Position numbers and translations under genes: made by a program
Notes under the pieces: model-generated
Told to the model about the DNA's origin: nothing
Seen by the model: only the letters and a program-made list of their open reading frames with translations
The model's database searches: none
Source: Pseudoxanthomonas beigongshangi
Lineage (GTDB): Bacteria; Pseudomonadota; Gammaproteobacteria; Xanthomonadales; Xanthomonadaceae
Direction of reading: 5' to 3'
NCBI RefSeq assembly: GCF_016820515.1
Contig: NZ_JADHDV010000005.1
Location: 124,001-188,000, forward strand
Length of the DNA stretch: 64,000 bases
Shown: one piece after another, positions 25,552 to 34,101 of the stretch
Layout: each line of letters begins with the position of its first letter
How positions within the stretch are numbered: position 1 is the stretch's first letter

Positions 25552-27696
25552 TCAGTTCGCGGGCATCAGCCGGTCAATCAGGAAACTCATCCGCAGCGCC
25601 ATCAGTTCCGGATTGCGCAGGGCATCGCTGACCCCATGTCCACCTTCCTCGTCCTCGTAGAAGTAGGTGGTGGCGCCGGCATCGGCCAGCCGGTGGGCGA
25701 GCTTGCGCGCATGGCCGGGACCGACCCGGTTGTCCTCGGTCGAGATGGTGACCAGGAACGGCGGATAGCGCGTGCCCGGGCGGACATTCTGGTACGGCGA
25801 ATACTTGAGCATCGCGGCGAGCTGTTCCGGCACGTCGGGGTTGCCGTACTCGTTCATCCATGCCGCACCCATGCCCATGTGGCGCATCCGCACCAGATCG
25901 GTCAGCGGCACGTCGCTGACCACCGCCGCGAACAGGTCCGGCCGCTGCGTGCCCAGCGTCGCGGTGAGCAGGCCGCCGTTGGACATGCCGAAGATGCCGA
26001 TCCGGTCCGGCGCGGTGAAGCCGCTGCGGATCAGGTGCTCGGTGACGGCGATGAAATCGTCGTACGAGTTCTGCCGCTTCTCGCGGATCGCGGCGGTGTG
26101 CCAGGCCGCGCCGCGCTCGCCGCCACCGCGCATCGCCGGAATCGCCAGCGAACCGCCGCGTTCCAGCCACAGTTTCAGGGCCGGACCACCGACGATGGCG
26201 TCGAAGTAACCCGGACGCACCGAGATGCCGAAGGCGCCGTAGCCGGTCATCAGCAGCGGCTGGGGGCCGGGCTTGGGATGGCGCGGTTTCAGCAGGAAAT
26301 AGTCGACCGAGGTGCCGTCGCGCGAGGTGGCCGAACCGATTTCGGTGGTGAAACCGGCGCCGTCCATCAGCACCGGATCCTGGGCCAGCAGGCGCCGCGG
26401 CTCATCGTCGCGCAGCAGGTACTGGCTGCGGGGGGTGACGAAACCGGCGACCGAGATTGCCAGTTCGCGGCGGTCACGCTCGTCCGCGCGCAGGCTCACG
26501 GTGTCGCCGGCCGCCACGTCCAATACCTTGCGGGTGGTCCAGCGGCCATCGCCGTCGTCGTCGCGCGCGGCGACCACGCGCTGGCGCAAGTGCTGGTTGA
26601 TGATCAGGAACACTTCGTCGCGCGTGGCCGCCAGCCCGCCGAAGCCGGCATCGACAAACTCGTCCGCCGCCGGCACGTATACCGCCGACACGCGCTTGCC
26701 TTCCGGCGTGGCGGGATCCGCGTCATAGGCGATCACGGTTTCGGCGCGATACGGCTGGCCCTCGATGGTCGCGTCCTTGGCCAGTTGGACCACGATGTGG
26801 CGCGCGGAGGTCGCCAGCACGCCGAACGGCTTGATCGCCTGCGGCAGCGGCAACGTGCGGGACGCGCCGCTGGCATCGACCAGGCTGACTTCGAAGGTCG
26901 AATAGTCGATCGCGCGGGTCAGTACGGCCTGCACGCGGTCGGTTCCGACGGTGGTGGCCTGCACGATCGCATCGCCCGGCTGGCCCTGGAACGCCGGCTT
27001 CACGTCCGCCAGCGCCTGGCCGCGCTTCCACAGGCCGAACGCGGCCGGCCAGCCGGCCAGCGATTTCGGCTGATCGCCCAGCGTGTGGCCGACCAGCACT
27101 TGATCCGCGCTCATCCACTCGGCGAACGCGCGCGACTTGCCGACCCGGAAGCCGCCATCGACGAAGCGCGCGGTGGCGAGATCGAATTCGCGGATTTCCA
27201 CCTCGTCGCCACCACCGGGCGAGAGCCGCAGCAGGCAGCGCGCGTACTCCGGCGCCAGGCAACTGGAGCCGAAGCTGTAGACCTGCAGTTCGAACGGAAT
27301 GCCTTCGCGCTTGCGCAACTCGGCCACGTCCAGCACGATCTTCCACTCGCCGGCCACGCCTTGCGCGTCGCGTGCGGCGGTCTGCAGCAGGCCATAGGGA
27401 TGCGCGGCGTCGCGATACAGGCGCACCGCGCGTTCGCCCAGCAGGTACTGGTCCGGTTCGGCCGGCGCCTGCGCCAGCGCCGAGCCGAGTTCGCGGCTGA
27501 CGGTGGCATGCGAGGGTAGCGCGCCCAGGCGCGCGCGCGCCTGGGCGGTGGCCTGGCGGGCCCAGGCCAAGGCCTGGGCCCCGTGCGGATCTTCCAGCCA
27601 TTGCAGCGCGTCGGCATCGGCGGCGCGGGATGCCGCGGGCAGGCAAAGCGCGAGGCCCAGCGCGAGCGCGGGCAGCATTCGTTGCGTGAACGTCAT
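25552..27696 (-). CDS. secreted prolyl oligopeptidase, S9 family
   Basis: A 714-residue serine peptidase exported by signal peptide (MLPALALGLALCLPAASRA). The N-terminus LQWLEDPHGAQALAWARQATAQARARL is the prolyl-oligopeptidase start. A beta-propeller follows, then an alpha/beta-hydrolase domain. Catalytic serine sits in GIFGMSNGGLL, aspartate probably in TEDNRVGP and histidine in EEGGHGVSDAL. It cleaves after proline in short peptides. It is the last gene after two TonB receptors and lies 47 bases behind the second, so it is probably made in the periplasm to cut an imported peptide. Whether it acts like the lasso-peptide isopeptidase AtxE, which is in the same fold family, is open. Confidence 0.87.
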   Translation of the reverse strand: MTFTQRMLPALALGLALCLPAASRAADADALQWLEDPHGAQALAWARQATAQARARLGALPSHATVSRELGSALAQAPAEPDQYLLGERAVRLYRDAAHPYGLLQTAARDAQGVAGEWKIVLDVAELRKREGIPFELQVYSFGSSCLAPEYARCLLRLSPGGGDEVEIREFDLATARFVDGGFRVGKSRAFAEWMSADQVLVGHTLGDQPKSLAGWPAAFGLWKRGQALADVKPAFQGQPGDAIVQATTVGTDRVQAVLTRAIDYSTFEVSLVDASGASRTLPLPQAIKPFGVLATSARHIVVQLAKDATIEGQPYRAETVIAYDADPATPEGKRVSAVYVPAADEFVDAGFGGLAATRDEVFLIINQHLRQRVVAARDDDGDGRWTTRKVLDVAAGDTVSLRADERDRRELAISVAGFVTPRSQYLLRDDEPRRLLAQDPVLMDGAGFTTEIGSATSRDGTSVDYFLLKPRHPKPGPQPLLMTGYGAFGISVRPGYFDAIVGGPALKLWLERGGSLAIPAMRGGGERGAAWHTAAIREKRQNSYDDFIAVTEHLIRSGFTAPDRIGIFGMSNGGLLTATLGTQRPDLFAAVVSDVPLTDLVRMRHMGMGAAWMNEYGNPDVPEQLAAMLKYSPYQNVRPGTRYPPFLVTISTEDNRVGPGHARKLAHRLADAGATTYFYEDEEGGHGVSDALRNPELMALRMSFLIDRLMPAN

Positions 27697-27743: not shown

Positions 27744-29882
27744 TCAATAGTCGTAGCGGAACAACACGCCGAAGGTGCGCGGCTGCGGGCGATTGGATGC
27801 ACCGAGTCGGATCAGATTTCCGTCCGAATCGAACTCGCTCGCGCCGCGCGCGTTGATCGCGCCGTCCTCGTCGGTCAGGTTGTTGCCATACAGGTACACG
27901 CCCCAGCCGGCGGGCGATTCCAGGCCGATGCGCGCGCCGGCCAGGGTCAGGGCGTCGCCCGGCGTGCCGGCGGTCAGCGCGGTTTCGCGCGCGGAGTCGT
28001 GGTGCACGTTGACCGAGGCCACGCCGCGCAGGTTCGCGCCGACGTCCCAGTTGTAGGCGGCCGAGGCATTCAGGCTGGTTTTGGGTACGTTGTAGACCGC
28101 GGTGCCGCGATGCAACGGCGTGCCGGGCACGTCGGCCGAGTAGGTCGCATCGACCCAACTGCCTCCGAACTGCAGGGTCAACGCGCGGACCGGGTTGTAG
28201 GTCACGCTCAGTTCGACACCCTTGTTGCGGGTGCCGTCGGAGTTGGTCAGGCCGTTGATCTCCGGCGTGATCGGCACGCGCACCGCGACGCCCTCCCAGT
28301 CGCTGTAGAAGACCGCGCCTTCCAGCAGCAACTTGCCATCGGCCAGCACCGACTTGGCGCCCAGTTCGTAGGTCCAGATCGAGTCGGCGGAGATCTGCGA
28401 GGGCAGGTCCACACCGTACTGTTCGGCCAGCTTGATGGATCCGATCGGCTGCAACTGTCCGGAACGGAATCCGCGCGCGGCCGAGGCATAGAAGGTAGTG
28501 CTGTCCGACGGCTTGTAGGACAGGCTCAAGCGCGGATTCCAGCTGTCGAAGGTGGCGTTGAGCGTGGACACGCTGCCATCGGAAGCCGCGTCGGCGGCGT
28601 CCACCTTGTCCTTGAAGTAGCGCAGGCCGGCGGTCACCGCCCAGGCCGGATTGGGCAGCTTGAGCGTGGCCTCGCCGAAGATCGCGTGGGCGTCGTTGGT
28701 CTGGCGCGAGTTGCTGGTCACGATGCCGGGAATGTCCAGCACATCCGCGCGTTCGGCCTTGCGCAGGTAATAGCCGACCGTCCAGTCCAGCCGGTGCTCG
28801 CCGGTCGAGGCCCAGCGCAGTTCGTGGGTGCGCACGCCGATGTCGATCGCCGCGTCCAGCGGAATGCCTGCCGCCAGCTCGCCGGTCTGCGGATAGCTGA
28901 GGTTGCCGTCGGAGAAGGTGTAGACGATCTGCGAGGCGTCCAGTTCGTAGGTGCTGGTCAGGCTGGCCGAGTCCCATTCGTTGTGGCTGGCCAGGAACGA
29001 GTTGTTGGTGCCGTCGTCGTAGGCGCTGTTGCTGGCGGCCTCGGAATCGGAGCGGTACTTCCAGTAGGCGAGATCGATGTTCCAGCGCTCGGTCGGTGCG
29101 AAGCGGACCTTGGCGCGCCAGGTGCGGATGTCGTTGTCGTTGACGTTCTTCGCGCCGGTGTTGGTGTTGTCGATCCAGCCGGGCGTGCGCTCGTCGGTGA
29201 TGGCCAGGCGCAGGGCCAGGCGATCGTCCACCAGCGGGATGTTCACGTAGGCCTTGGCGCCGCGGCCATCGCCGCCGCCGCTCACGCGCGAACCATCCAG
29301 TTCCACCCCGGCGCCGAAACGGTTGAATTCCGGCTTGCGGGTGAGGATGCGCACTGTGCCGCCCATCGATCCCTCGCCGAACAGCGTGCCCTGCGGACCC
29401 TTGAGGATTTCCACCCGGTCGATGTCGAAGGATCGCGTGTCCGGATACCAGGGCACGGTCACGCCGGTGAACGGCGTCTCGTCGACGTAGTAACCATTGT
29501 CGTTGCCGCCCAGCGAACTGGAAACGCCACGGATCTGCACCTGGGTGAAGGCACCGCCGGTGTCGATGGAGGAAGCGCCAGGGGTGATGTTGATGACGTC
29601 CACCACGTTGCGCAGGCCCATCGCATCGATCTGCTCGCCGGTCACCGCGGTGATGGCAATCGGCACGTCGATCTGGCGCTCGTCGCGCTTGCGCGCGGTG
29701 ACCGTGACCGCGCCCAGATCGACGGCATCGGAGGCTTGCGCCGACGCCTGCCCATCGGGCGTTGCGGTGGCCTGCTGGGCATGGACAGGCGCGCCGATCA
29801 GCGACAGCAGGATCGCGGCGGCCAGATGGTTGCGGATCGGAGAAACGGGACGCGACGTGACACGTGGCTTCGTGGACGACAT
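27744..29882 (-). CDS. TonB-dependent receptor without STN domain
   Basis: A 712-residue outer-membrane receptor with a long signal peptide ending VHAQQATA. A TonB-box-like region lies at residues 54-62 (VDLGAVTVTARKRDE) and the plug at about 70-185, containing VQIRGVSSSLGGNDNGYYVDETPFTGVTVPWYPDTRSFDIDRVEILKGPQGTLFGEGSMGGTVRILT. A barrel ending with RTFGVLFRYDY follows. The plug wording is almost the same as in the STN receptor at 30019-32349, including the SSLGGNDNGYY stretch. The two are duplicates that differ mainly in whether they carry STN and in barrel loops. An ECF-type promoter match precedes it, and the prolyl oligopeptidase gene follows. Confidence 0.9.
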   Translation of the reverse strand: MSSTKPRVTSRPVSPIRNHLAAAILLSLIGAPVHAQQATATPDGQASAQASDAVDLGAVTVTARKRDERQIDVPIAITAVTGEQIDAMGLRNVVDVINITPGASSIDTGGAFTQVQIRGVSSSLGGNDNGYYVDETPFTGVTVPWYPDTRSFDIDRVEILKGPQGTLFGEGSMGGTVRILTRKPEFNRFGAGVELDGSRVSGGGDGRGAKAYVNIPLVDDRLALRLAITDERTPGWIDNTNTGAKNVNDNDIRTWRAKVRFAPTERWNIDLAYWKYRSDSEAASNSAYDDGTNNSFLASHNEWDSASLTSTYELDASQIVYTFSDGNLSYPQTGELAAGIPLDAAIDIGVRTHELRWASTGEHRLDWTVGYYLRKAERADVLDIPGIVTSNSRQTNDAHAIFGEATLKLPNPAWAVTAGLRYFKDKVDAADAASDGSVSTLNATFDSWNPRLSLSYKPSDSTTFYASAARGFRSGQLQPIGSIKLAEQYGVDLPSQISADSIWTYELGAKSVLADGKLLLEGAVFYSDWEGVAVRVPITPEINGLTNSDGTRNKGVELSVTYNPVRALTLQFGGSWVDATYSADVPGTPLHRGTAVYNVPKTSLNASAAYNWDVGANLRGVASVNVHHDSARETALTAGTPGDALTLAGARIGLESPAGWGVYLYGNNLTDEDGAINARGASEFDSDGNLIRLGASNRPQPRTFGVLFRYDY

Positions 29883-29961: not shown

Positions 29962-29989
29962 GACGAACCGGTGCAACAAAAGTGAAATG
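29962..29989 (-). promoter_or_regulatory. ECF-sigma promoter before the second receptor
   Basis: Minus-strand CATTTCACTTT and, after a further 11 bases, TTCGTC make a 28-base site whose two ends and spacing match the site upstream of the sigma-factor gene (34074-34101). In ECF promoters the second block is the -10 (CGTC). The ATG of the receptor is about 80 bases downstream. Confidence 0.75.
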
Positions 29990-30018
29990 GGCACGGCGCG
30001 CAGGCGCCGGCGGCAGGA

Positions 30019-32349
30019 TCAGAAGCGGTAGTGCAGTTCCATGCCGTAGCTGCGAGGACGCAGGCGGGTGGCATTGCCGTACGGGGCGCGGCCATCCACC
30101 GCGCCCTGTTCGTCGAGCAGGTTGTCCGCGTACAGATAGCTGCTCCATCCGCGCGCGGACTCCAGGCCCAGGCGCAGGCCCAGATCCAGGATCGCGTCGC
30201 CTTCGTCGCCTTCGACCAGGCCGGTCTGGCGGCGCGAGTGGTAGCTGGCGCGGCTGGCCGCGGTCAGGTTCATGTCCGGTCCAACCGGCCAGGCATAGGT
30301 GGCGGTGCCCGAGAGACTGGTGCGGGGCACGTTGTAGATCTGGGTGCCACGGCGCAGCGGCGTGCCCGGCACGTCGGCGGCATAGTGGGCGTCCAGCCAG
30401 GTCGCGCCCAATTCCAGCCGCAGTTGCGCCGCGGGCGCGTAGCTCATCCCCAGTTCCACGCCCCGCACGATCGCGCCGTTCGAATTGATCAACCCGTTGT
30501 GGGTGCCGTCGATCGGAACCCGCACCGGCAGATCATGCCAACGGGTGTGGAACGCAGCGCCCTGCACCAGCAGGCGGCCACCGGCGGTGATCTGCTTGAG
30601 TCCGATTTCGTAGGACACCAGCGAATCGGGTGGCAGCGTGGAGGGCAGGGTGATCCCGGCGGCGAGCGCGGCGGCCTGCGAGTCGGCCGGCTGCAACTGA
30701 CCCGAGCGGAATCCGCCGGCGACGCTGGCATAAACCGTGCGTTGATCCGAGAACCGCCGGTTGACGCTCATCCGCGGCGTGAGCCGATGGAAGGTCGAGC
30801 GCAGGCGCGTGTCGCGTGTCGAGGACAGTGCCGTTCCGTTGACCTCGTCGGTGAAGTAGCGCAATCCGGCGGTGGTCGACCAGGCGGAATCCCGGGGTGT
30901 CAGCGTGAGTTCGCCGAACAATGCGTCCGCACGGTTGGACTGCCGGGCCACCGCGTATTCGCCATCGACGAACAGCGCATCGCGACGCAGTGCTTCGCGA
31001 TGCGAATAGCCGACGATCCACTCCAGCGGGCCGGCACCGTGCGAGCTCCAGCGCAGCTCCGTGCTGTCCACGTCGATGTCGAGGGTTCCCCGGAGCGTGG
31101 ACGTCGGCGTGAGCATCCCGTCGATCACGTATTCGAGCCGGGCATCCGACACCACCAGCAACAGCCGCGAGGCGGGCAGTTCCAGGCTGCTGTTGATGCT
31201 GTTGGCGCGCCAGCGGGACCGCGTGTCCTGATAGGCGTTGGTCTGCAGGACATCGGTGGCCGCGTAGCCGCCGCCCTCGGCAAGGGTGGTGGAACCGATG
31301 TGGCTGAAATCGGTCATCCAGGTGTCGCTGGCCGACCAGCGCAGGCGCGCGCGCCGGGTGGTGACGCGCTGCGGATTGATGTCGCGCCCGCCGTCGGGCG
31401 TGTCCACCCAGCCGGCCAGCGTTTCGCGGGTGGCGACCAGGCGCAGGCCGAGCCTGTCCGGCACCAGCGGCAGGTTGGCCATCGCCTTACCCATGCCGCC
31501 GTCGGCGCCGCCTTCGGTGCTGGACGCTCCCACTTGCACAGCGGCGGAAAACCGATCCAGTTCCGGCGCGCGGGTGAGGATGCGCACGGTGCCGCCCATC
31601 GAGCCTTCGCCGAACAGCGTGCCCTGTGGGCCCTTCAACACTTCCACCCGTTCCAGATCGAACGCGCGCGTGTCCGGATGCCACGGCACGGTGACGCCGG
31701 TGAAGGGAATGTCGTCCAGGTAGTAGCCGTTGTCGTTGCCGCCCAATGAGCTGGAGATGCCGCGGATCTGCACCTGGGTGAAGGCGGCGCCGGCGTCGAC
31801 CGCGGCCACGCCGGGCGTCAGCCGCAGTACGTCGGTGGCGTTCTGCAGGCCCAGCGCCTCGATGCGTTCACCCGCGTGCACCGACAATCCCATCGGCACG
31901 TCCATCCAGCGCTCGTCGCGCTTGCGCGCCGACACCACCAGCGGCGCCAGGGTACGGGTGGGCGCGACCAGCGCGATCGGCTGCGGCGCGGGTTGTTCCG
32001 CGCGTGCCGGTGCGCGCGGCGACACGGTGATCACCCCGCCTTCCACGCTGAAAGCGTAGCCACTGCCTTCCAGCAGGCGTTCCAGCGCCGCCTCCACCGT
32101 CATTACCCCGCTGACCCCGGGGCTGCGGCGCGCGCCACCCAGATCACCGACGGCCGCCAGCGGCAGGCCGGCTTGCTGTGAAAAGCTCAGCAGGGCCTCG
32201 TCCAGCGGTTGCGCGGGAATACGGAAGGCCACGCGTGGCGAGGGCGCCGCCCACGCCGACAGGCAGAAGCCCAGCCACAGCAGCGCCAGTCCGCCCCGCC
32301 GCCGCCAGCCGGAAAGCTCCGTCCACCACGCCGGCGCCGGAGGGCGCAT
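30019..32349 (-). CDS. TonB-dependent receptor with N-terminal STN signalling domain
   Basis: A 776-residue FecA-type receptor. Signal peptide LALLWLGFCLSAWA is followed by an STN domain at about residues 38-105: RVAFRIPAQPLDEALLSFSQQAGLPLAAVGDLGGARRSPGVSGVMTVEAALERLLEGSGYAFSVEGGVITV. Plug and barrel come next (GISSSLGGNDNGYYLDDIPFTGVTVPW, VEVLKGPQGTLFGEGSMGGTVRILT), ending RSYGMELHYRF. STN passes the loaded state through TonB/ExbBD to the inner-membrane FecR. ATG 32349 is chosen because it starts a proper signal; a TTG at 32385 would extend it. It is third in the sigma/anti-sigma operon. Iron source is the classical substrate, but the presence of a prolyl oligopeptidase nearby makes a peptide or peptide-siderophore plausible. 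Confidence 0.9.
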   Translation of the reverse strand: MRPPAPAWWTELSGWRRRGGLALLWLGFCLSAWAAPSPRVAFRIPAQPLDEALLSFSQQAGLPLAAVGDLGGARRSPGVSGVMTVEAALERLLEGSGYAFSVEGGVITVSPRAPARAEQPAPQPIALVAPTRTLAPLVVSARKRDERWMDVPMGLSVHAGERIEALGLQNATDVLRLTPGVAAVDAGAAFTQVQIRGISSSLGGNDNGYYLDDIPFTGVTVPWHPDTRAFDLERVEVLKGPQGTLFGEGSMGGTVRILTRAPELDRFSAAVQVGASSTEGGADGGMGKAMANLPLVPDRLGLRLVATRETLAGWVDTPDGGRDINPQRVTTRRARLRWSASDTWMTDFSHIGSTTLAEGGGYAATDVLQTNAYQDTRSRWRANSINSSLELPASRLLLVVSDARLEYVIDGMLTPTSTLRGTLDIDVDSTELRWSSHGAGPLEWIVGYSHREALRRDALFVDGEYAVARQSNRADALFGELTLTPRDSAWSTTAGLRYFTDEVNGTALSSTRDTRLRSTFHRLTPRMSVNRRFSDQRTVYASVAGGFRSGQLQPADSQAAALAAGITLPSTLPPDSLVSYEIGLKQITAGGRLLVQGAAFHTRWHDLPVRVPIDGTHNGLINSNGAIVRGVELGMSYAPAAQLRLELGATWLDAHYAADVPGTPLRRGTQIYNVPRTSLSGTATYAWPVGPDMNLTAASRASYHSRRQTGLVEGDEGDAILDLGLRLGLESARGWSSYLYADNLLDEQGAVDGRAPYGNATRLRPRSYGMELHYRF

Positions 32350-32400
32350 GCAATGGCGGACGGTGGCGGCAACGGCGGCTGGCAAGGACTGTGTTCCGGA

Positions 32401-33492
32401 TCAGGGAGCGCCGTCTCCGGGAGGCACCGCGGGACGCTTCACCGGATTGTTCTGCGGTTCGTCGCTGGACAGCAAGATCTCGCCTTCGCTGCGCCGGACG
32501 TCCAGGTGCAGCGCCTTGGCCAGGCCGTCGATCCAGCGGTCGATGCTGGCAACCTCCCAGCGCCCGGTGACCTTGAGTTGCCCCAGGGCGGGATCCTGCA
32601 GGCGGATCGGGACGCGCGAATATCGGTTGAGATCGGTGATCACGCTGTCCAGCGGTTCGCCCTGGTAGACCACGGCGCCTTGCCGCCACGCAGTGGCGAG
32701 CGGCGCGTTGACGGCCTGCGGGGGCTGCAGGCCATTGGCGAGGCTGTAGCGGATCCGCTGGTTGCCGGTGGCCAGGTAGCGGCGAACATGCCCGTCCCCG
32801 GCTGCGCTGACCTGGACGCGGCCTTCGTCGACCACCACCGTCACTTCGCGATCGCCATGTTCGGCCACGCTGAAGCGGGTACCCAGCGCCTGGCTGAGGA
32901 CGCCTTTGGCATCGACCACGAACGGCCGATCAGGCGCGTGCGCGACCTGGAAGTAAGCGCGGCCGTTGCGCAGTTCGATGTCGCGCCGGTCAGGGTGGTA
33001 GCGGACGCTGACTTCGGACGCCGCATCCAGTTCCAGGATCGAACCGTCGGCGAGGGTGATCTGGCGGCGTTCGCCGATGCCGGTGGCGAAGGACTGCGAC
33101 GGGTCTTCCGGTGCACCGCGCGGGATCAGGAACCAGGCGAGCGTCACGGCCAACGCCACGCAGGCGGCGCTGGCCCATGCCCAGCCGCGACGCGAGCGGC
33201 GACGCAAGGGCCGGGCCGGCGCCGTGACGGGAGGCGCGGACTGGGACGGGGAGGTCGCGGGCTGGACGCTGCGCGCGGCCCGCGCGCGCAACACGGTGTC
33301 CGAATCCAGCGTTCCCGCCGCTTCCCACAACGCGGCCAGATCGTCGAAGGCCGCGGCGTTGGCCGGCGAGGCCATCCAGTCGCACCAGGCTTCCAGTTCC
33401 TTCGACGGCACATCCTCTTCCTGCATGCGAAGCAGCCAGTGGCCGGCCTCGCGCAGGGCCGTCTTGCGCGGCTCCGTGGATGTCGGGTTCAT
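32401..33492 (-). CDS. fecR: FecR-like sigma regulator (anti-sigma)
   Basis: A 363-residue inner-membrane protein. The cytoplasmic part (residues 1-95) starts with a FecR-type DUF4880 domain (REAGHWLLRMQEEDVPSKELEAWCDWMASPANAAAFDDLAALWEAA). One membrane helix at about 103-123 follows (WASAACVALAVTLAWFLIP). A periplasmic FecR domain comes next (GERRQITLADGSILELDAASEVSVRYHPDRRDIELRNGRAYFQVAHAPDRPFVVDAKG), then a C-terminal STN-like/DUF4974 part (PLDSVITDLNRYSRVPIRLQDPALGQLKVTGRW). It is expected to receive the signal from the STN receptor and control the sigma factor it overlaps by 4 bases. Confidence 0.92.
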   Translation of the reverse strand: MNPTSTEPRKTALREAGHWLLRMQEEDVPSKELEAWCDWMASPANAAAFDDLAALWEAAGTLDSDTVLRARAARSVQPATSPSQSAPPVTAPARPLRRRSRRGWAWASAACVALAVTLAWFLIPRGAPEDPSQSFATGIGERRQITLADGSILELDAASEVSVRYHPDRRDIELRNGRAYFQVAHAPDRPFVVDAKGVLSQALGTRFSVAEHGDREVTVVVDEGRVQVSAAGDGHVRRYLATGNQRIRYSLANGLQPPQAVNAPLATAWRQGAVVYQGEPLDSVITDLNRYSRVPIRLQDPALGQLKVTGRWEVASIDRWIDGLAKALHLDVRRSEGEILLSSDEPQNNPVKRPAVPPGDGAP

Positions 33493-34064
33493 GATTGTTC
33501 TTCCTCCCACTCGTCCGTGATGCCGTCCAGGCGTTCCTGGCAGTACGTCAGTGCGCGCGCCACATGGATGCGGACCATGCGCTCGGTCAGGCCCAGTACG
33601 CCTGCCGCATCGGCAAAGCTCAATTGTTGCACCCTCACCAGCCGGAAGGCCTCGGCGCAGTTGTACGGCAGCTCCGCCAGCAGGGCGGGCAGCCGTTCCA
33701 CCAGTTGCGCCGCGTTGGCGGAGCGTTCCGGACTGGTGCCCGGATCCGGCCACAGGTCCACGCCGTCCGGCGCGGGCTGCTCGGTATGGGCGCGGCGGCG
33801 CAGCAGGTCGGTTGCCAGGTTCTGCGCGATCCGGAACAGGTAGGCCCGGTGGAAACTGATGGTGGTTTCGTTGCCCAGGTTCAGCAGCTTGGCATAGGCC
33901 TCCTGCGCGACCTCCCAGGCGTCGTCGTAGGAGCCCAGCCGCAACTGCAGCATGCGCACCAGCGACTGGTTGAAGTCGCGGACCAGATCCTCGGCGGAGG
34001 CGCGCGCGCCGGCCCCGTCGGGGACCGGTGCGCCGGGAGGCAACTTGTTTCTGGATTCAGCCAT
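33489..34064 (-). CDS. fecI: ECF sigma factor, FecI type
   Basis: A 191-residue RNA polymerase sigma factor. Region 2 is EDLVRDFNQSLVRMLQLRLGSYDDAWEVAQEAYAKLLNL plus HRAYLFRIAQNLATDLLRRRAHTE. Region 4 is LPALLAELPYNCAEAFRLVRVQQLSFADAAGVLGLTERMVRIHVARALTYCQERL, a FecI-like region-4 HTH. No anti-sigma or ECF41-like C-tail is present. Its stop overlaps the fecR start (ATGA). The promoter-like site at 34074-34101 ends about 9 bases before the chosen ATG, so the sigma gene may be driven by its own factor and the mRNA may be almost leaderless. Confidence 0.9.
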   Translation of the reverse strand: MAESRNKLPPGAPVPDGAGARASAEDLVRDFNQSLVRMLQLRLGSYDDAWEVAQEAYAKLLNLGNETTISFHRAYLFRIAQNLATDLLRRRAHTEQPAPDGVDLWPDPGTSPERSANAAQLVERLPALLAELPYNCAEAFRLVRVQQLSFADAAGVLGLTERMVRIHVARALTYCQERLDGITDEWEEEQS

Positions 34065-34073
34065 GCCGGTAGA

Positions 34074-34101
34074 GACGAAGCGGGGAGTCGAAAGTGAAAT
34101 G
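34074..34101 (-). promoter_or_regulatory. ECF-sigma promoter before fecI
   Basis: Minus-strand CATTTCACTTT, 11 bases, TTCGTC. The first 11 and last 6 of the 28 bases are identical to the site at 29962-29989. Equal spacing and identical outer blocks with an unconserved middle are what a -35/-10 pair shows. Autoregulation of fecI is the simple reading. Confidence 0.75.

Follow-up and report, generated by a model that had tools for sequence, protein, structure and literature searches.

The window, a stretch of 64,000 nucleotides from Pseudoxanthomonas beigongshangi, carries on its minus strand a five-gene locus with the components of a FecI/FecR/TonB-receptor surface-signalling system. A domain search identified an ECF sigma factor, an adjacent FecR and a receptor with an STN domain. 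Two further genes, for a receptor and a peptidase, lie behind these, and two putative promoters precede the sigma gene and the second receptor gene:

34074..34101, minus strand: putative promoter 1, before the sigma gene, CATTTCACTTT-CGACTCCCCGC-TTCGTC, with -35 core TTTCA and -10 core TCGTC
33489..34064, minus strand: FecI-type ECF sigma factor, 191 aa (Pfam Sigma70_r2 and Sigma70_r4_2)
32401..33492, minus strand: FecR-type anti-sigma factor/transducer, 363 aa (Pfam FecR and DUF4880; translation)
30019..32385, minus strand: TonB-dependent receptor with an N-terminal STN signalling domain (Pfam STN, Plug and barrel)
29962..29989, minus strand: putative promoter 2, before the second receptor gene, CATTTCACTTT-TGTTGCACCGG-TTCGTC
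27744..29882, minus strand: second TonB-dependent receptor, without STN domain (Pfam Plug and barrel)
25552..27696, minus strand: prolyl-oligopeptidase-family (S9) peptidase with an apparent signal peptide and Ser, Asp and His motifs (Pfam Peptidase_S9)

In the Pfam matches, the sigma factor comprises regions 2 and 4 only, as expected of an ECF sigma factor, and the translation of the FecR-type protein contains a hydrophobic segment. The second receptor is 47% identical to the STN receptor. The solved chain nearest to the peptidase is a post-proline cleaving enzyme, and the Ser, Asp and His motifs of the peptidase are kept in 9 orthologues. No intrinsic terminators were found in the region.

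With its prolyl-oligopeptidase-like peptidase, TonB-dependent receptor and FecI/FecR pair, this gene set recalls the astexin-type lasso-peptide isopeptidase clusters, in which a prolyl-oligopeptidase-like enzyme occurs together with a TonB-dependent transporter and a FecI/FecR pair (PMC9266682). Unlike lasso isopeptidases, however, the peptidase resembles post-proline cleaving enzymes. It scored 18.8 bits for the AtxE2-type lasso-peptide isopeptidase family, where the cut-off is 400, and this identity was rejected. The neighbouring genes that were read included no recognisable lasso precursor gene or maturation gene. On the evidence of the peptidase, the cargo of the locus is probably peptide-like.

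The two 28-base sites and their specificity

An earlier note on this DNA had described two minus-strand sites with common end blocks and a gap of 11 bases, which is exact at 34074-34101 and 29962-29989; its remark that the middle mostly differs also holds, with 6 of the 11 spacer positions differing between the two sites. At up to 3 mismatches, the chance expectation for such a match in the window is 0.02, and no shuffle produced two sites. The genome search that the note had proposed, with CATTTCACTTT-N11-TTCGTC over all 4.23 Mb, returned exact matches at these two positions. No other match has fewer than three mismatches, while a control search with the reversed pattern over the same sequence yielded zero.

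This pattern search of the own genome also gave three additional matches with 3 mismatches. One lies apparently inside a receptor gene beside another FecR and another inside long open frames, and neither was counted as a site. The remaining one, GATTTCCCTTT-N11-TTCGCC (L005 position 1501-1528; C67:111822-111849 in G000, the own genome), has open frames on the same strand that begin about 200-260 nt downstream; by its sequence it is a weak candidate for a third target and falls outside the consensus derived below. A third site that fits the consensus was not found in the own genome, and at none of its seven other FecR loci does a comparable site precede a sigma gene. The note was also correct in seeing no third copy before the STN receptor. 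This is understandable because the sigma gene and fecR share 4 bp and the STN receptor gene begins 15-51 bp past the fecR stop (with TTG at 32385 or ATG at 32349 as start), so that promoter 1 can serve all three genes.

When up to 1 mismatch was allowed, the 299 family genomes scanned gave seven matches, and the reversed control gave zero. Two each are in the own genome, in Pseudoxanthomonas sp. z9 and in G017, at the expected places, and one is in G286, which holds a decayed copy of the locus. The random genomic hits that the earlier note had named as evidence against its reading were thus absent from the 299 genomes at this threshold, and from the own genome at up to 2 mismatches. A degenerate consensus recovers both sites in each operon-carrying genome; across 11 genomes it gave four extra matches versus three in the control. 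As this consensus was built from the same sites, only the lack of extra sites is independent evidence there. The predicted regulon is the locus itself, whole or nearly so.

Two extra consensus matches, in G064 (C6:171550) and G306 (C4:1036800), are near-identical (RTTTCCGYTCCAGCTCAGGCCTTCGTT) and probably belong to one conserved gene. Similar motifs also occur beside more distant sigma factors. In genus g7, whose sigma factors are 37-40% identical, CATTTCAATTT-N11-AACGTC is found about 1.2 kb upstream of the sigma gene (L042-L046, at about position 890, or 297 in L046), and in G071 CGTTTCCGTTT-N11-TTCGTA is found about 480 nt before it (L041 position 1577). These may be related promoters of remoter FecI systems. 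The sigma relatives in G071 and genus g7 have 37-47% identity, and we kept their motifs, which lie at other distances, out of the evidence.

Conservation and history of the operon

Sigma orthologues, defined by at least 65% identity, are present in 7 of 38 genomes of the own genus (the own genome included) and in 5 of 52 genomes of a second genus; outside the family, none was found among 369 class-level genomes at E 1e-25. The nearest named relatives, and the only close ones in the contig scan, are Pseudoxanthomonas sp. z9 and the Pseudoxanthomonas MAG RX3. Complete operons of fecI, fecR, STN receptor, second receptor and peptidase occur in the own genus in the window, z9, G017, G300, G301 and G306, and in the second genus in G163, G693, G709 and G687. 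All nine distinct ones have both sites. The comparison of orthologous loci that the earlier note had called for thus places the site at both positions in every complete operon, in two genera of one family. The RX3 and G698 loci are cut by contig ends and have the first site.

For the analysis of the sites themselves, we left out z9, which is a near-copy, and counted the G286 remnant, which gave 12 sites before sigma genes and 9 before receptor genes. In 21/21 the spacer measures 11 bases, and a gap of 11 is the best fit at each of 20 sites tested outside the window (p ≤0.0015 against shuffles). Across the 21 sites the blocks are conserved while the spacer and flanks drift: the average information content reaches 1.56 bits in the first block and 1.76 bits in the second, compared with 0.61 bits in the spacer and 0.29-0.34 bits in the flanks. 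The resulting consensus is CRTTTCAnTTT-N11-TTCGTC. With TTTCA as putative -35 core and CGTC as putative -10 core, the two cores lie 17 nt apart, a separation that fits ECF geometry. When compared with the ECF elements AAC (-35) and CGT (-10), all sites contain CGT and none contains AAC, which FecI-like sigma factors need not use.

The remnant in G286 is a deletion scar (L071, C12:166139-166166 and some 200 bases past it). It retains promoter 1 and the first ~42 sigma codons, which run through a 4-base overlap (ACCT) into the final codons of the peptidase gene; nearly the whole five-gene operon is missing.

In a tree of the receptors, the STN and second receptors form two well-separated clades (100/100), so their duplication predates the divergence of these loci. 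Within both clades, G301 and G306 of the own genus group with G709 and G687 of the second genus (L068, L069, L085, L086). As the locus is, in addition, patchy within both genera, this grouping suggests that the whole operon was transferred between the genera together with its promoters.

The start of the sigma gene

The sigma ATG lies 8-10 nt past the -10 block in 12/12 orthologues, and 9 nt past it in the window. Transcription from such promoters usually starts 6-9 nt past the -10 element, which would place the 5' end of the mRNA at the ATG or within a few bases of it. Anti-Shine-Dalgarno pairing in the 20 nt before the sigma ATG is weak, between +1.2 and -2.5 kcal/mol in 11 of the 12 orthologues, and -5.0 kcal/mol in G163, so that most of them have no Shine-Dalgarno sequence there. 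At the likely start of the second receptor, a Shine-Dalgarno sequence is present (-5.8 to -7.4 kcal/mol) and the leader extends 56-96 nt past the -10 across the orthologues, 79 nt in the window. We predict from these distances and pairing energies that the sigma mRNA is leaderless or nearly so.

Since the sigma N-terminus varies, the start codon itself had to be inferred. The first 25-40 residues differ between orthologues and several of these offer in-frame alternative starts, which would also agree with sites that are sigma-dependent but a fecI translated from a downstream start, or from a longer mRNA that starts farther upstream, and thus not functionally leaderless. We think this rather unlikely, given the constancy of the ATG position. 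Moreover, RX3, G301 and G306 do not have an alternative start ahead of the conserved region, the G286 remnant retains the same ATG with a G301-like N-terminus, and a search upstream within the window gave no promoter of the sigma-70 type.

Proposed regulatory model and known FecI-type systems

The earlier note had read the sites as -35/-10 promoters of one sigma factor, and their exclusiveness, their conservation in two genera and their invariant spacing support this. We consider it highly likely that both are promoters of the adjacent FecI-type sigma factor and constitute its regulon entirely or nearly so, providing feedback and output, with a leaderless fecI and a peptide-like cargo. The STN receptor would bind an extracellular ligand and signal through FecR, which would activate the sigma factor; for this step we rely on homology to Fec. 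RNA polymerase with the sigma factor would then fire promoter 1, raising sigma factor, FecR and STN receptor in a positive feedback, with a transcript that would start at or a few bases before the ATG, so that fecI would be translated almost or entirely without a leader. The same holoenzyme would fire promoter 2 and produce, as output, the second, transport-only receptor, which would import a peptide or peptide-like cargo, and the periplasmic peptidase, which would cut it. A scan for sigma-70-type promoters identified no basal promoter that could start the loop.

We infer the recognition of both sites by the local FecI from their co-occurrence, and the own genome contains seven other FecR loci; the element might thus be an operator of another regulator, or the promoter of another sigma factor, that controls both units while the local FecI acts elsewhere. 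This is improbable, as non-palindromic blocks at a fixed distance of 11 bases, in constant orientation and close before a gene, resemble a promoter more than an operator. Further, the sites are confined to genomes that carry this sigma gene or its remnant and travel with it between genera, whereas other FecI/FecR loci do not have them. Shared ancestry could be invoked as well, because the two receptors are paralogous (47% identity) and the second site might be a functionless relic of a receptor duplicated along with its upstream region. We regard this as very improbable: the duplication is older than the divergence of the loci, the flanks of the two sites are not similar, the STN receptor is without a site of its own, and blocks and spacing have been kept while spacer sequence and flanks drifted.

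A simple consensus match for Fur boxes upstream of the 12 sigma genes gave best matches at 8-11 of 19 positions, none convincing. As every complete operon has the same site both before its sigma gene and before its output genes, the system appears to be autoregulated, unlike classical iron-type FecI. The fecIR genes of E. coli are Fur-repressed and not autoregulated (PMC9249621). The locus shares with E. coli FecI-FecR-FecA the ECF sigma factor, FecR and STN receptor, and a sigma factor that would fire a receptor-led output operon, but differs in that a site also precedes the sigma gene and the signalling receptor lies within the sigma operon. The output units differ too: a second receptor plus a peptidase here, the signalling receptor plus an ABC importer in E. 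coli.

HemI-HemR-HemAD of the related bacterium Stenotrophomonas maltophilia has the same FecIRA-like order of sigma factor, FecR and receptor, yet hemI is Fur-repressed and autoregulation was tested and found absent (PMC12772443), in contrast to the apparent autoregulation and absence of a convincing Fur box here. A surface-signalling system outside Fur control is also seen in VreA-VreI-VreR (PUMA3) of Pseudomonas aeruginosa; however, vreAIR is controlled by PhoB and VreI does not bind the promoter of its own operon (PMC4971064), whereas here the site lies before the operon of the sigma factor itself. In this respect the locus resembles autoregulated operons of ECF sigma and anti-sigma factors, with a promoter before the own operon and a CGT-type -10, but its -35 is TTTCA-like rather than AAC and its regulator is of the FecR type. 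In ECF sigma promoters, a CGT -10 is typical and an AAC -35 common, and FecI-like sigma factors are a named exception to ECF autoregulation (PMC8103513).

Beyond the earlier note, the sequence comparisons add a footprint in two genera, a seemingly closed regulon, a promoter-retaining deletion scar and the prediction of a leaderless sigma mRNA. We propose tentatively that the locus encodes a Fur-independent, self-amplifying FecI-type circuit dedicated to a peptide-like cargo, with the two neighbouring promoters as its whole regulon and a leaderless sigma mRNA. If true, the circuit could act as an all-or-none switch, and synthesis of the sigma factor would be independent of Shine-Dalgarno initiation. 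FecI-type sigma factors abound, and predicting their target promoters is difficult, since for the most part the class is considered to lack autoregulation. As an apparent exception to this rule, the locus supplies, for one FecI-type group, a sequence-defined promoter and a closed two-site regulon that are directly testable, and it draws attention to a pair of receptors and a peptidase that would handle its cargo.
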